Positions 45,883 to 55,643 of a stretch of DNA of 64,000 bases are shown here, one piece after another. This stretch comes from Aureimonas fodinaquatilis. Its GTDB lineage: Bacteria; Pseudomonadota; Alphaproteobacteria; Rhizobiales; Rhizobiaceae. The notes under the pieces are model-generated. The model did no database searches. It was not told the DNA's origin and saw nothing but the letters and a program-made list of their open reading frames with translations. The DNA lies in the NCBI RefSeq assembly GCF_008369445.1, contig NZ_VTWH01000002.1, positions 434,001-498,000 on the forward strand, written 5' to 3'. Made by a program: the position numbers and the translations under genes. Positions within the stretch are counted from its first letter, which is position 1. Each line of letters opens with the position of its first letter.

Positions 45883-47067
45883 TTAACCGGACGGGTTGTC
45901 GCCCATGCCGATTTCAGCAAGTACCTGCTCTGTGTGTTCACCTAGGGCAGGTGCGCCACGTTCCAATGCCAATTGTGCTTTTGAAAAACTGATCGGTGTG
46001 CGCACGCCTGGCACGCTTCCGCCAGCCGCGGCATCGTTTTGCGCGTTGACCTGCATTTGCCGCCACTGAACCTGCGGATTGGCAAAAACATCTTCCACAG
46101 TATTGATCGGGCCTGCCGGAATGCCATTTTCTTCCATGAGGGTAAGAAAATCGTCGCGCCGGTAGCCTGCGATATATGGCCGCAGGCTGGCAGTCAGGCG
46201 GTCTCTATCGTTCACCCTCCCCGCATTGGTAATGAACTGCGGGTCAGATGCAAGTTCCCGAGCGCCTATCAGACCACACATGCGTGCAAACTGACTATCA
46301 TTTCCCACTGCAAGAATGACGTGACCATCCTCCACTTCGAAGACCTGGTAAGGAGCGATATTGGGATGCGCATTGCCAAGCCGATGGGGCGAACGGCCCG
46401 AAACAAGATAGTTCAAGGCCTGATTGGCCAGAACACCTGTCATGCAGTCCAGAAGCGCGAGGTCGAGATGCTGCCCGGTGCCGGTGCGCTCACGCTGGGC
46501 CAGCGCGGCCTGGATGCCGATAACACCGTACAGCCCGGTGAATATGTCGGCAAAAGCTACGCCCATTTTCTGCGGCTCGCCTTCCGGGTCGCCCGTCAGA
46601 TCCATGATGCCGCTCATGCCCTGCACAATGTAATCGTAGCCGGCACGATGCGCATATGGGCCGCTTTGGCCAAAGCCGGTGATGGAGCAATAGATCAGGC
46701 GCGGATTGATCGCCGCCAGGCTCTCATAATCCAGCCCGTATTTCTTCAAGCCACCCAGTTTGAAATTCTCAATCACCACGTCGGCGTTCGCCACCAATCG
46801 CCGAACAGCCTCCTGCCCGTGCTCGGTGGTGAAGTCCAGAATAACGGATCGTTTGCCCCGGTTGCAGGAGTGGAAATAGGCCGCGTCCAGGTTTTCGCCG
46901 GCAACACCCTGAACAAAGGGTGGACCCCAGCCTCTTGTGTCATCACCGGCCGGGCTTTCGACCTTGATCACATCCGCCCCCAGATCGGCAAGCGTTTGAC
47001 CTATCCATGGACCGGCCAGAATTCTGGCGAGTTCCACAACGCGAAGTCCCTGCAATGGCGTGGGCAT
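45883..47067 (-). CDS. CaiB/BaiF (class III) CoA-transferase
   Basis: These enzymes move CoA between carboxylic acids. The 394-residue protein has the complete family pattern: GLRVVELARILAGPWIGQTLADLGADVIKVE in parts (LRVVELARILAGPW), DTRGWGPPF, YFHSCNRGKRSV and the catalytic-Asp region DLTGDPEGEPQKMG. The C-terminal GLIGARELASDPQF and NGIPAGPINTVEDVF segments follow. The substrate cannot be read from sequence. It is divergent from the rpfF-like gene with 304 bases between, so it could act on fatty-acyl groups related to the signal, but this is only an inference from position. Confidence 0.9.
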   Translation of the reverse strand: MPTPLQGLRVVELARILAGPWIGQTLADLGADVIKVESPAGDDTRGWGPPFVQGVAGENLDAAYFHSCNRGKRSVILDFTTEHGQEAVRRLVANADVVIENFKLGGLKKYGLDYESLAAINPRLIYCSITGFGQSGPYAHRAGYDYIVQGMSGIMDLTGDPEGEPQKMGVAFADIFTGLYGVIGIQAALAQRERTGTGQHLDLALLDCMTGVLANQALNYLVSGRSPHRLGNAHPNIAPYQVFEVEDGHVILAVGNDSQFARMCGLIGARELASDPQFITNAGRVNDRDRLTASLRPYIAGYRRDDFLTLMEENGIPAGPINTVEDVFANPQVQWRQMQVNAQNDAAAGGSVPGVRTPISFSKAQLALERGAPALGEHTEQVLAEIGMGDNPSG

Positions 47068-47284
47068 TTTGTCTCCGACAAGATTTTCTTTTTAATCAAA
47101 ATTGCTGGCAATCTAATTAAAATTTTATTTTTTTCGTCCGTTTGGCGGTCTTTACACAACCATTACTTGCAGTCGCCGCGCTGTTTTTTCAATGCATTCA
47201 CAAATACCAGCTACTTTCGGTGGTACATCCGCCGAACGACCAGACCGACATTGAATGAGCCCAAGCACCAGAGAATTGATACCC

Positions 47285-47295
47285 GTAACAGTTAC
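47285..47295. promoter_or_regulatory. Palindrome overlapping the candidate rpfF -35 element
   Basis: GTAAC-A-GTTAC is a perfect 5+1+5 palindrome whose right arm overlaps the proposed -35 hexamer, the position expected for a repressor operator. Confidence 0.35.
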
Positions 47296-47319
47296 AAGAG
47301 ATTGTGGTCGGTGTATTAT
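47292..47319 (+). promoter_or_regulatory. Candidate sigma-70 promoter of rpfF
   Basis: TTACAA at 47292-47297, a 16-base spacer ending in TG, and TATTAT at 47314-47319 give an extended -10 type promoter about 50 bases before the rpfF ATG. Confidence 0.4.
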
Positions 47320-47371
47320 TGTTCTTAAATCAACCAAAGTTGCAATTCTCCCCCAGATTCAGGAGCCTCCC

Positions 47372-53253: not shown

Positions 53254-53433
53254 GTCCGCAATTGCCTTCTCGATCTTCCATGCCCCACTTCACCACTCCT
53301 GATGAGGTATTGCAAATATTATTGAACCTACAGTTTAATACAAACACATATCAGCAGAAAAGAGAAAAACGTGCCTAGGATGAATATCTCTACCTTGTCT
53401 AGACAAAAATAAACTCTGTTAGATACCAAGTCA

Positions 53434-54561
53434 TTAAGCAATCGCTGTTTTGCCTTTTCCATCCCGCTTTACTGAATACAGAGCCCGATCTGCGGCGCGA
53501 AGCAGTTTTTTAAGATCGGCGCTTTCTGTGCCGAAAAACGCTACACCGATGCTGACACCAATGGTGTTGATCGCCTGCCCTGCCAGAGTGTAGGGCCTGC
53601 TGATGGCCGAACGCACCGTTTCAGCATATTGCTCCGCATGAGCGTGGCTGGCAAAACTGCCGACCAGCACAAATTCATCGCCGCCAATTCGGGCCACACA
53701 ATATCCCGGAAGAGCCAGGTTCTGAAGCCGGTTGGACACTGCAACCAGTGTCAGATCACCCATATCATGGCCGAATGAATCGTTGATCGACTTGAAGCCA
53801 TCCAGGTCGAGATACATGAACGCCCGCACCCTGCCATCTTCAGGTTGTGAACGCATTTTTTCCAGCTCAACGCCCAGTCCGGCACGGTTCAAAAGGTTTG
53901 TCAGCGTGTCCTGACGCGACAGTGCCTCGTTGGTGCGCTCGGCAATCATTGTGTCCACCAGAATTGACTGGAGAACAAAGGCCGAGCGGCACATGCTGAA
54001 AATATAGAACGGAATCTGGATCAACCCCAGATATAGAAGCGGCTGCCCTGCAAACGGCAACACAAAACACACCGGCCCGAAAGCCAGGATAATCATAACC
54101 GCGGCCAGACGCGGTGTGCCAAAATTGCGAATGCAGATGCCGCCAATCATGGCCGCAGAAGACATCATCACCAGCGTTGCGACCACCCAGTCGCCCGAAG
54201 CCATTGAGATGAAGCCGCCATATCCGACACTGGCCGCCCACAATATTGCGAACAGAATAACCGCATCCGTGGGGGTGGGCAGACCGGCAAGCGCCCTTTT
54301 GCGGGAATGAATCAGCAGCACGACACGAATGAGGCAGATTGCCACTTCAAGCGCCAGCCAGGCTACAAACTGGGTGCCCCCCAGGCGCACGGCAACAAAT
54401 GCCGCAACAAACGTCGTGTTCAGCACACCGCCTAGAAAAATGGGCATCGTGCCATACAGTCCATTCATCAGGCGCACACGAACCTCAATCGGAGCTTCAG
54501 CCCCGATCGACGTCAACCATTTGCCGAGAGAGTACTTGGGCAGGCTGTATGCGAGCGACAT
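53434..54561 (-). CDS. Membrane-bound GGDEF diguanylate cyclase
   Basis: About 375 residues. The N-terminal 200 residues form roughly six membrane helices with no recognised sensor fold (VLNTTFVAAFVAVRLGG, AVILFAILWAASVGYGG, MIILAFGPVCFVLPF). The GGDEF domain follows: RQDTLTNLLNRAGL, MYLDLDGFKSINDSFGHDMGD and VARIGGDEFVLVG, with all catalytic residues and no RxxD site. The ATG at 54561 is preferred because AGG lies just upstream; an ATG at 54642 lacks a ribosome-binding site. It is divergent from the EAL gene and follows the same direction as the response regulator. Confidence 0.9.
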   Translation of the reverse strand: MSLAYSLPKYSLGKWLTSIGAEAPIEVRVRLMNGLYGTMPIFLGGVLNTTFVAAFVAVRLGGTQFVAWLALEVAICLIRVVLLIHSRKRALAGLPTPTDAVILFAILWAASVGYGGFISMASGDWVVATLVMMSSAAMIGGICIRNFGTPRLAAVMIILAFGPVCFVLPFAGQPLLYLGLIQIPFYIFSMCRSAFVLQSILVDTMIAERTNEALSRQDTLTNLLNRAGLGVELEKMRSQPEDGRVRAFMYLDLDGFKSINDSFGHDMGDLTLVAVSNRLQNLALPGYCVARIGGDEFVLVGSFASHAHAEQYAETVRSAISRPYTLAGQAINTIGVSIGVAFFGTESADLKKLLRAADRALYSVKRDGKGKTAIA

Positions 54562-54734
54562 TCTACCTGCGACTTCCCTGTCCCAAAACTGACGCTGCCA
54601 CGGGTATATATTATTATACGTTGAGCAAGCAACTTGGTTCATATTGCGGTAACGGCTTACTGATAAAAATCAGGCAGGATGATTGCAATCCGCCCTAATT
54701 CATGTAGATTTTAAATGTTAAATTTATTTAGTGT

Positions 54735-55643
54735 TTGATCAGCTTGTCTCAGATTCACCCCCTCACTGCGGCGGACTTCGACACTTCATCCAGCGAGCCT
54801 TCTTCGCCGGAATCGTTGGCCAGCGCTTCCGGCATTGCTCCGGTGTGGTTGGTTCGCTGGCTGCGGATGCGCGGCAGCGTTGATCGCAGGTTGCGGGCTG
54901 CCCTCAAGCTGAATGGGCTGAAAGTTCACTATCAACCCATCGTTGACAGTCAGACCGCCCGGATTGTCGGCGCGGAAGCTCTCATGCGGTGGCAGCAGGT
55001 GGATGGCAGCCATGTTGCCCCCAACACCTTCATACCCGTGGCTGAAGATATCGGGGTTATTCGCCATATAACGGAAATTGCCATACGCGCTATCAGTCAG
55101 GATTTCGCCATCTGGCTGAAACAGGCGCCGGAATTCACCCTGAGTTTGAATGTCCTGGCCGACGACCTGACAGACCCGTTTTTTCATGAGTGTCTGAAAT
55201 CTGCCATTGAAGACAATGGTATCAATCCTGCCCAGATTGCCTTTGAACTGACAGAGCGGCGCAAGATTTCGCGGCTCAAGGGCGGCAGGGCAACAAACAG
55301 CCTGTCCTCGCGAGGTTACAAAATCTATCTGGATGATTTTGGTACCGGCTATTCGAACATCGACTATTTCGGCAGGCTGACGCTGGATAAAATCAAGCTG
55401 GACCGCACCTTCATCATGTCGATTGGCAGGGATGAACGTCGCTCGTCGCTTATTCCACTCATGGTTGAAATGGCAAAACGCTACGGAATCGGCATTATCG
55501 CGGAAGGTGTGGAAACGGCGGAACAGGCTGAATTTCTTCGCGCGCTGGGCGTGGATCAAATGCAGGGATGGCATTTCGGCCGCGCAATGACCGCGCAAGC
55601 GCTTCTCGAGCATTTGCGCAGCGATTGCGTTGAGTCAGTTTAG
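54735..55643 (+). CDS. EAL-domain c-di-GMP phosphodiesterase
   Basis: A 302-residue stand-alone EAL protein without membrane helices or signal peptide. All metal and catalytic residues are visible: VGAEALMRW, SLNVLAD, FELTERRK, YLDDFGTGYSN, IKLDRTF, IAEGVET and QMQGWHFGRAM. It should hydrolyse c-di-GMP to pGpG. The start is uncertain: TTG at 54735 has no clear ribosome-binding site, and an ATG at 54867 just before the domain is possible. It is divergent from the GGDEF gene, giving a paired synthase and hydrolase, and overlaps the convergent gpt end by 4 bases. Confidence 0.9.
   Translation: MISLSQIHPLTAADFDTSSSEPSSPESLASASGIAPVWLVRWLRMRGSVDRRLRAALKLNGLKVHYQPIVDSQTARIVGAEALMRWQQVDGSHVAPNTFIPVAEDIGVIRHITEIAIRAISQDFAIWLKQAPEFTLSLNVLADDLTDPFFHECLKSAIEDNGINPAQIAFELTERRKISRLKGGRATNSLSSRGYKIYLDDFGTGYSNIDYFGRLTLDKIKLDRTFIMSIGRDERRSSLIPLMVEMAKRYGIGIIAEGVETAEQAEFLRALGVDQMQGWHFGRAMTAQALLEHLRSDCVESV

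Follow-up and report, generated by a model that had tools for sequence, protein, structure and literature searches.

The question raised by positions 45883 to 55643 of a 64,000-nt stretch of Aureimonas fodinaquatilis DNA (contig NZ_VTWH01000002.1; the whole stretch is henceforth referred to as the window) is whether this alphaproteobacterium carries a fatty-acid signalling circuit of the diffusible signal factor (DSF) type that is read out as cyclic di-GMP (c-di-GMP). An earlier note on this DNA had named five genes, for an RpfF-like synthase, an RpfC-like kinase, a REC-PAS-GGDEF-EAL protein, a membrane GGDEF protein and an EAL protein, and an open reading frame check together with a Pfam scan located all five where they had been described (Table 1). 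The rpfF and rpfC-like genes are convergent with stop codons 47 bp apart, the REC-PAS_4-GGDEF-EAL gene and then the membrane GGDEF gene lie upstream of the rpfC-like gene on the same strand, and the EAL gene is divergent from the GGDEF gene. We consider it probable that three of these genes (rpfF, the rpfC-like gene and the REC-PAS-GGDEF-EAL gene) form a fatty-acid signalling module that is inherited as a unit and would pass a signal through a phosphorelay to c-di-GMP turnover.

The synthase groups with RpfF proteins

The best start of the rpfF-like gene is the ATG at 47372, with AGGAG ending 6 bases upstream. Its product scored 364.7 bits against the curated PRK08788 model (cut-off 177) and matched the PDB entries 3m6m (RpfF, 193 bits), 7zq7 (a crotonase-family protein, 186 bits), 5fus (173 bits; named RpfFBc in PMC6361424) and 6dgn (RpfF, 172 bits), whereas the best ordinary hydratase in the PDB reached 77.8 bits. 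In the alignment with 3m6m, E160 and E180 correspond to the catalytic E141 and E161 of Xanthomonas campestris RpfF, and G105 and G157 occupy the positions of Gly86 and Gly138 of the known synthase. Conservation was assessed in 109 distinct RpfF loci, made up of the best 80 of 529 relatives in named genomes, 24 found by sampling the class evenly and relatives from the genus and order, minus 4 duplicates. E180, G105 and G157 are kept in all of them and E160 in 107, Asp replacing it in the remaining two. Since both Glu residues are also present in 10/10 outgroup enoyl-CoA hydratases, the catalytic pair by itself cannot separate RpfF from hydratases. A quick maximum-likelihood tree of 123 rows does so: the 109 RpfF rows and 4 solved RpfF-type chains split from the 10 hydratases (branch 100, full support in the Shimodaira-Hasegawa-like approximate likelihood ratio test, SH-aLRT), although the solved chains sit on long branches and their exact place among the RpfFs is unsure. 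Judged by this placement, the window synthase is not an ordinary enoyl-CoA hydratase, and the outcome that the earlier note had named as telling against it, a synthase inside that group, was not observed.

The source genome holds a single RpfF (705 bits; next match 63 bits). Close copies (79-81%) occur in 4 of 20 other genomes of the genus and 33% relatives in 2 of the 20, and the RpfF search of 16 same-family genomes of other genera gave hydratase-level matches only. In the tree the window RpfF clusters with four other Aureimonas sequences, beside an Acetobacteraceae metagenome-assembled genome (support 91). The two RpfF-like proteins with Asp for the first catalytic Glu come from two other Aureimonas genomes without a close rpfF (loci L037 and L038, genomes G020 and G009); the identity is 32-33% in these two, and in each case the neighbouring gene encodes a PAS-GGDEF-EAL protein whose N-terminus is long and hydrophobic. 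Elsewhere in the tree, the module RpfF of a contig labelled Mycobacterium sp. KBS0706 (L046) is sister to that of an Inquilinus record (L043; support 92), and this label is probably wrong or the contig contaminated.

The three-gene core recurs across alphaproteobacteria

Domains in these loci were annotated by means of profiles made from the proteins of the window itself. An RpfC-type kinase complete with its input domain is convergent with rpfF in 79 of the 109 loci and lies elsewhere nearby in 4 (83 in total); L048 is cut before the input domain and 8 loci are cut by a contig end. In 54 loci the accompanying regulator is REC-PAS-GGDEF-EAL and in 19 it is REC-PAS-kinase, of which one showed only its PAS-kinase part; REC-PAS accounts for 3 loci and REC-HD-GYP for 1. 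The REC-PAS-GGDEF-EAL module has a convergent rpfC in 51 loci and rearranged genes in 3, and because the core arrangement recurs in 51 + 3 of 109 distinct loci it is beyond chance. Records with the order rpfF-rpfC-regulator are named as Hyphomicrobiales families, Acetobacteraceae and Sphingomonadales. Across the 54 loci, distances between the proteins were correlated (RpfF-RpfC 0.82, RpfF-regulator 0.79, RpfC-regulator 0.93; 0/2000 permutations each, without species-tree control). A GGDEF-EAL or kinase regulator is present in 73 loci, and apart from the module itself no gene family recurs in more than 15 of them. The even class sample gave matches in 24 of 385 genomes, the source genome included, and a phylum sample in 62 of 398. 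Of 20 phylum loci that were fetched, 7 carry rpfF-rpfC-HD-GYP (one being L103, already in the set) and 6 carry rpfF with PAS-GGDEF-EAL (5 RpfR-like; L200 has a different N-terminus), the rest comprising 2 RpfC without a recognised regulator, 1 kinase-REC protein, 2 membrane GGDEF-EAL proteins and 2 loci of the window type already in the set.

Several observations weigh against a module of this kind. The window RpfF missed the cut-off of the RpfF equivalog NF053515 (228.7 against 550 bits) and is therefore placed in the wider RpfF/PRK08788 family rather than in the equivalog. Sixteen of the 109 RpfF loci have no RpfC-type kinase although sequence is available, and the kinase of L109 has no input domain. 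In the class sample the regulator is a kinase in 14/24 loci and, the window aside, GGDEF-EAL in 1/24, so that the class has a commoner regulator type than that of the window. Finally, the window receptor keeps R15, D17 and E19 of the DSF-sensing segment but has Arg for S18 and Ile for Q22, and the REC domain of the window regulator has T106 in place of the usual switch lysine; both are considered below.

The kinase is of the RpfC type and its sensing segment marks a clade

The HisKA, HATPase_c and REC domains of the RpfC-like kinase exceed their Pfam cut-offs, and Hpt falls slightly under its own (23.8 vs 24.6 bits). The phosphorelay residues are conserved in 85 aligned kinases (H196 in 84, D619 in 85 and H783 in 83, the remainder being gaps), and the REC domain matches that of RpfC in the PDB (3m6m_D, 74.8 bits). 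With its RpfC-type membrane input domain, to which the source genome has one match, its domain order HisKA-HATPase-REC-HPt and its orientation convergent with rpfF, the protein has the features of an RpfC, and the earlier description of a membrane hybrid kinase with HPt facing the synthase gene was borne out, His783 being conserved. Kinases linked to REC-HD-GYP regulators (L103, L190, L196-L199, L201) share the same input domain in the alignment. Three loci (L043 and L056, both Inquilinus records, and L046) have extra frames of 276-453 aa, with an RpfC-type input domain and part of a kinase, between rpfC and the regulator, which recall rpfH of the Xanthomonas rpfGHC operon as described in PMC4504480; L161 has a second RpfC-like gene on the opposite side of rpfF.

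In the mutagenesis reported in PMC5391125, DSF sensing by Xanthomonas RpfC depends on R15, D17, S18, E19 and Q22, and the response is lowered by every S18 change except Thr and by Q22A, Q22E and Q22N. We aligned 91 receptors, of which 54 are linked to GGDEF-EAL, 19 to kinase and 7 to HD-GYP regulators and 11 to another regulator or none. Position 22 is Gln in all kinase-linked (19/19) and HD-GYP-linked (7/7) receptors, whereas the GGDEF-EAL-linked receptors have Met (39), Ile (12), Leu (2) or Gln (1), and the remaining 11 have Gln (6) or Met (5). On a quick RpfC tree built without the sensing segment, Gln22 was lost once, on a branch (99) that divides 58 from 33 rows, and none of the 58 has it. 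Output type and residue 22 are not strictly tied, because L163 has a GGDEF-EAL output and yet keeps Gln22, grouping with the Gln clade. Output type was also rejected as the driver of the change: an independent-pairs test, with 2 pairs only, gave no signal, and L163 and the five Met22 receptors among the 11 others do not fit. As read from the alignment and tree, the Gln22 change is a clade marker and causation by output is unsupported.

These substitutions bear on the strongest alternative, namely that what is sensed here is not the classical cis-2 DSF but some other fatty acid or a membrane lipid, with a different RpfF product and a receptor clade whose contacts changed to match. We regard this as possible but the less probable account. 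The single loss of Gln22, extending to the whole clade, would fit it, as would position 18, which is varied in the GGDEF-EAL-linked receptors (S 19, G 14, R 11, T 9, D 1) and S or T in 19/19 kinase-linked ones; the catalytic residues of RpfF, however, are unchanged, the RpfF tree does not cleanly divide kinase-linked from GGDEF-EAL-linked sequences (16 changes for the GGDEF-EAL label), and Ryan 2015 describes the signal mix as set by substrate supply rather than by RpfF. A module that makes and reads a cis-2-unsaturated fatty acid remains the account that we prefer.

The input domain is predicted to resemble cyclase membrane domains

Predicted models of the input domain resemble the helix bundles of membrane cyclases, the domains compared being those of adenylyl cyclases 8 and 9, of Rv1625c/Cya and of ImcA, a diguanylate cyclase with six membrane helices. 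The likeness, which may extend to CqsS-type receptors, lies in a predicted helix arrangement that continues into a signalling helix; the effectors differ and the structural alignments have 7-13% identity. The models together with loop charges suggest six helices and a cytosolic sensor segment, contrary to the published five-helix RpfC model. None of 332 Foldseek matches to the receptor model had E <= 0.001. Pfam gave weak matches only on 46 input domains (HisKA start in 43, DUF4118 in 2 with a best E of 0.002, 6TM_PilS in 1 with E 0.0038), and a PDB profile search with the input domain matched the kinase start only, with no cyclase-type sequence match. PMC12505454 and PMC11606603 report that the membrane domains of cyclases act as receptors for fatty acids or lipids. 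The chances seem to us evenly balanced that the RpfC/DSF receptor domain, here and in its rpfG-linked relatives, is a six-helix receptor of the class of fatty-acid-responsive cyclase membrane domains, with its N-terminus and the segment R15 to Q22 in the cytosol, and that one clade, mostly coupled to REC-PAS-GGDEF-EAL, has exchanged Gln22 for a hydrophobic residue and so recognises another lipid, or the same one in another way. If this is true, the bacterial receptor for a fatty-acid quorum signal has the same design as the membrane domains of lipid-responsive cyclases, and the RpfC model now accepted, with five helices and a periplasmic sensor, is wrong. The module offers natural receptor variants for asking which residues read the fatty acid, as well as a direct test of receptor topology.

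The regulator retains both c-di-GMP domains but not the switch lysine

In an alignment of 55 GGDEF-EAL regulator rows (2 duplicates among them), all 55 keep D8, D9, D54 and T84 of REC, the D-E-F residues of the GGDEF motif and the EAL residues that were checked; 2 rows differ at the initial Gly of GGDEF. Since every row keeps these GGDEF and EAL residues, both activities may exist, and the regulator may both make and break c-di-GMP. The switch position of REC is Ser, Thr or Ala in all alphaproteobacterial regulators sampled (28/28 GGDEF-EAL, 18/18 kinase, 3/3 REC-PAS), whereas it is basic in 7 HD-GYP regulators (6 K, 1 R) and Lys in 11 RpfC RECs and 18 other own-genome RECs. The acceptor-pocket residues are retained in all 49 sampled module RECs that have no switch lysine, and the absence of this residue means that phosphorylation may not switch REC in the standard way. 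A further 15 RECs from the loci carry Lys (12) or Ser (3) at this position; the latter belong to 507-512 aa REC proteins encoded divergently from rpfF in L059, L074 (Skermanella) and L147, and may represent the same sort of regulator in a displaced position, possibly with another output type. When the RECs of third genes with any output (56 rows) were constrained to one clade against 44 other RECs, the approximately unbiased test gave p 0.866 on a short alignment of 116 columns, and the constrained tree was 21.3 log-likelihood units better than the free quick tree. This is compatible with, but not proof of, one ancestral RpfG-type REC that has exchanged its outputs.

A further alternative is that PAS_4 of the regulator itself binds the signal, as in RpfR or RpfS, which would give the protein two inputs, phosphate and fatty acid. 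PAS_4 was found in the window regulator and in 3 kinase-type regulators scanned, RpfS is described as binding DSF through a PAS_4 domain (PMC4504480), and 32 of the 54 GGDEF-EAL regulators have Ser at the position of the RpfR contact S169. In the same 54, however, R187 is Glu in 47, N172 is Leu in 33 and never Asn, N202 is Asn in 5 and Y183 is never Tyr, and a PDB search with the PAS domain returned nothing better than E 0.012. We consider PAS_4 sensing unlikely, and a sensor of the RpfR type was rejected since 4/5 contact residues are not kept.

Outer genes and flanks

Among the 4 other Aureimonas with the module, 3 have a counterpart of the membrane GGDEF gene at 58% identity; in the remaining 17 of the 21 genomes searched, a cut-off of E <= 1e-40 left just two matches, both at 34%. 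Aureimonas frigidaquae JCM 14755 carries the module, and the search found no close copy of the GGDEF gene there. The best match of the EAL gene in 20 other genomes of the genus reached 158 bits (self 555), and EAL genes are common, a search at E <= 1e-30 giving between 3 and 21 matches in each genome of the genus. From this distribution the GGDEF gene is probably an Aureimonas accessory and the EAL gene probably specific to the window; as no close counterpart was found in those 20 genomes, the latter was rejected as part of the module. That the three-gene core is itself a chance neighbourhood of an enoyl-CoA hydratase and unrelated c-di-GMP genes is highly improbable, being refuted by the recurrence of its order across alphaproteobacterial groups and by the grouping of the synthase with solved RpfF proteins, although the commonness of EAL genes may explain the outer EAL gene in just this way. 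The proposal of a complete fatty-acid circuit read out as c-di-GMP gains from the RpfC-type input domain and from a c-di-GMP output at the place of rpfG, whereas of the three enzymes it had assigned to c-di-GMP only the REC-PAS-GGDEF-EAL protein belongs to the conserved module.

A CoA-transferase gene, whose end is the low end of the noted stretch (45883), adjoins rpfF in all 5 module-bearing Aureimonas, and its family is not recurrent across the other RpfF loci. The earlier note had spoken of an island. With values of 0.537-0.565, the module blocks do not differ from their surroundings in GC content, and part of the left flank is common to all 5 module-bearing genomes, so that a recent insertion is unsupported and was rejected; the CoA-transferase surroundings in 6 module-less Aureimonas showed no clean empty site. 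Promoter and terminator scans of the window were no richer than those of shuffled sequence, and an Rfam scan found a single RNA gene, for tRNA-Pro, in the 2-kb block with the window's lowest GC (0.486).

Table 1. Features of the locus and its surroundings, in window coordinates
Feature	Position	Strand	Basis or remark
CoA-transferase family III gene	45883..47067	-	Flank; best model succinate-glutarate CoA-transferase, below model cut-off
rpfF-like DSF-synthase gene, 318 aa, catalytic E160 and E180	47372..48328	+	PRK08788, PDB 3m6m match, tree
rpfC-like hybrid kinase gene, 852 aa: membrane input domain-HisKA (H196)-HATPase-REC (D619)-HPt (H783)	48376..50934	-	Pfam; conserved residues
Receptor segment R15-P-D17-R18-E19-H-E-I22, corresponding to the DSF-sensing segment R15..Q22 of X. 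campestris RpfC	50869..50892	-	Alignment of relatives; X. campestris mutagenesis in PMC5391125
Response regulator gene, REC-PAS_4-GGDEF-EAL, 717 aa, at the place of rpfG	51100..53253	-	Pfam; catalytic residues intact
Membrane GGDEF protein gene, 402 aa, probable accessory neighbour	53434..54642	-	Pfam; counterparts in 3/4 other module-bearing Aureimonas
EAL protein gene, 302 aa, probably outside the module	54735..55643	+	Pfam; 20 other genomes of the genus without a close counterpart
tRNA-Pro (GGG)	58508-58584		Rfam scan

Proposed signal flow

In the three-gene module that we propose, RpfF would most likely dehydrate and hydrolyse 3-hydroxyacyl-acyl carrier protein to release a cis-2-unsaturated fatty acid, which the RpfC-like kinase would sense in or near the membrane via its bundle of hydrophobic helices. 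Phosphate would pass from H196 to D619, H783 and then D54 of the response regulator, and the phosphorylated regulator would alter c-di-GMP turnover, most likely by switching on the EAL phosphodiesterase, with GGDEF as a second activity. Activation of EAL is our best guess because the known DSF systems lower c-di-GMP via RpfG or RpfR, as described in PMC4504480. At low signal the RpfC REC may hold RpfF inactive; such sequestration is described for X. campestris and is assumed here.

Comparison with known systems

Two core DSF read-outs, RpfC-RpfG and RpfR, are described in Ryan 2015, and a 2026 review discusses the same two; PMC8895600 notes, at KEGG level, that alphaproteobacteria have orthologues of RpfC-RpfG. 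The window module shares with RpfF-RpfC-RpfG of X. campestris the synthase family and its catalytic residues, the convergent rpfF and rpfC genes, the family of the input domain, the REC and HPt domains, a regulator with a similar REC domain and a c-di-GMP output. It differs in having PAS_4-GGDEF-EAL where RpfG has an HD-GYP phosphodiesterase, in R18 and I22 of the receptor and in the missing switch lysine, and in this respect it is not the circuit of Xanthomonas. Like RpfF-RpfR of Burkholderia and Cronobacter, it places a DSF-type synthase gene beside a PAS-GGDEF-EAL gene; RpfR, however, has an RpfF-binding N-terminal domain and no REC, whereas the window regulator begins with REC and belongs to a family in which four of the five fatty-acid contacts of RpfR are not kept. 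PA1396 of Pseudomonas aeruginosa, a species described in PMC13220807 as having no canonical rpf cluster, has an input domain that PMC6536496 likens to the one in RpfC, its conserved Glu E8 matching RpfC E19, but is described as having no HPt and as signalling to a DNA-binding regulator (PMC4504480). In openly licensed papers we came across no account of the two variants with REC-PAS-GGDEF-EAL and REC-PAS-kinase, of the Gln22 clade or, in the one search that bore on it, of a cyclase-like receptor fold, which is a weak negative. Overall, as gene arrangements read from sequence, the window module is a third one beside RpfC-RpfG and RpfR, in which the RpfG output has been swapped and the RpfC relay joined to a GGDEF-EAL output, and REC-PAS-kinase is a fourth, the commoner of the two in the even class sample. 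The module also points to fatty-acid signalling in cultured genera that include Gluconacetobacter, Roseomonas, Pseudovibrio, Ancylobacter, Microvirga and Aureimonas.

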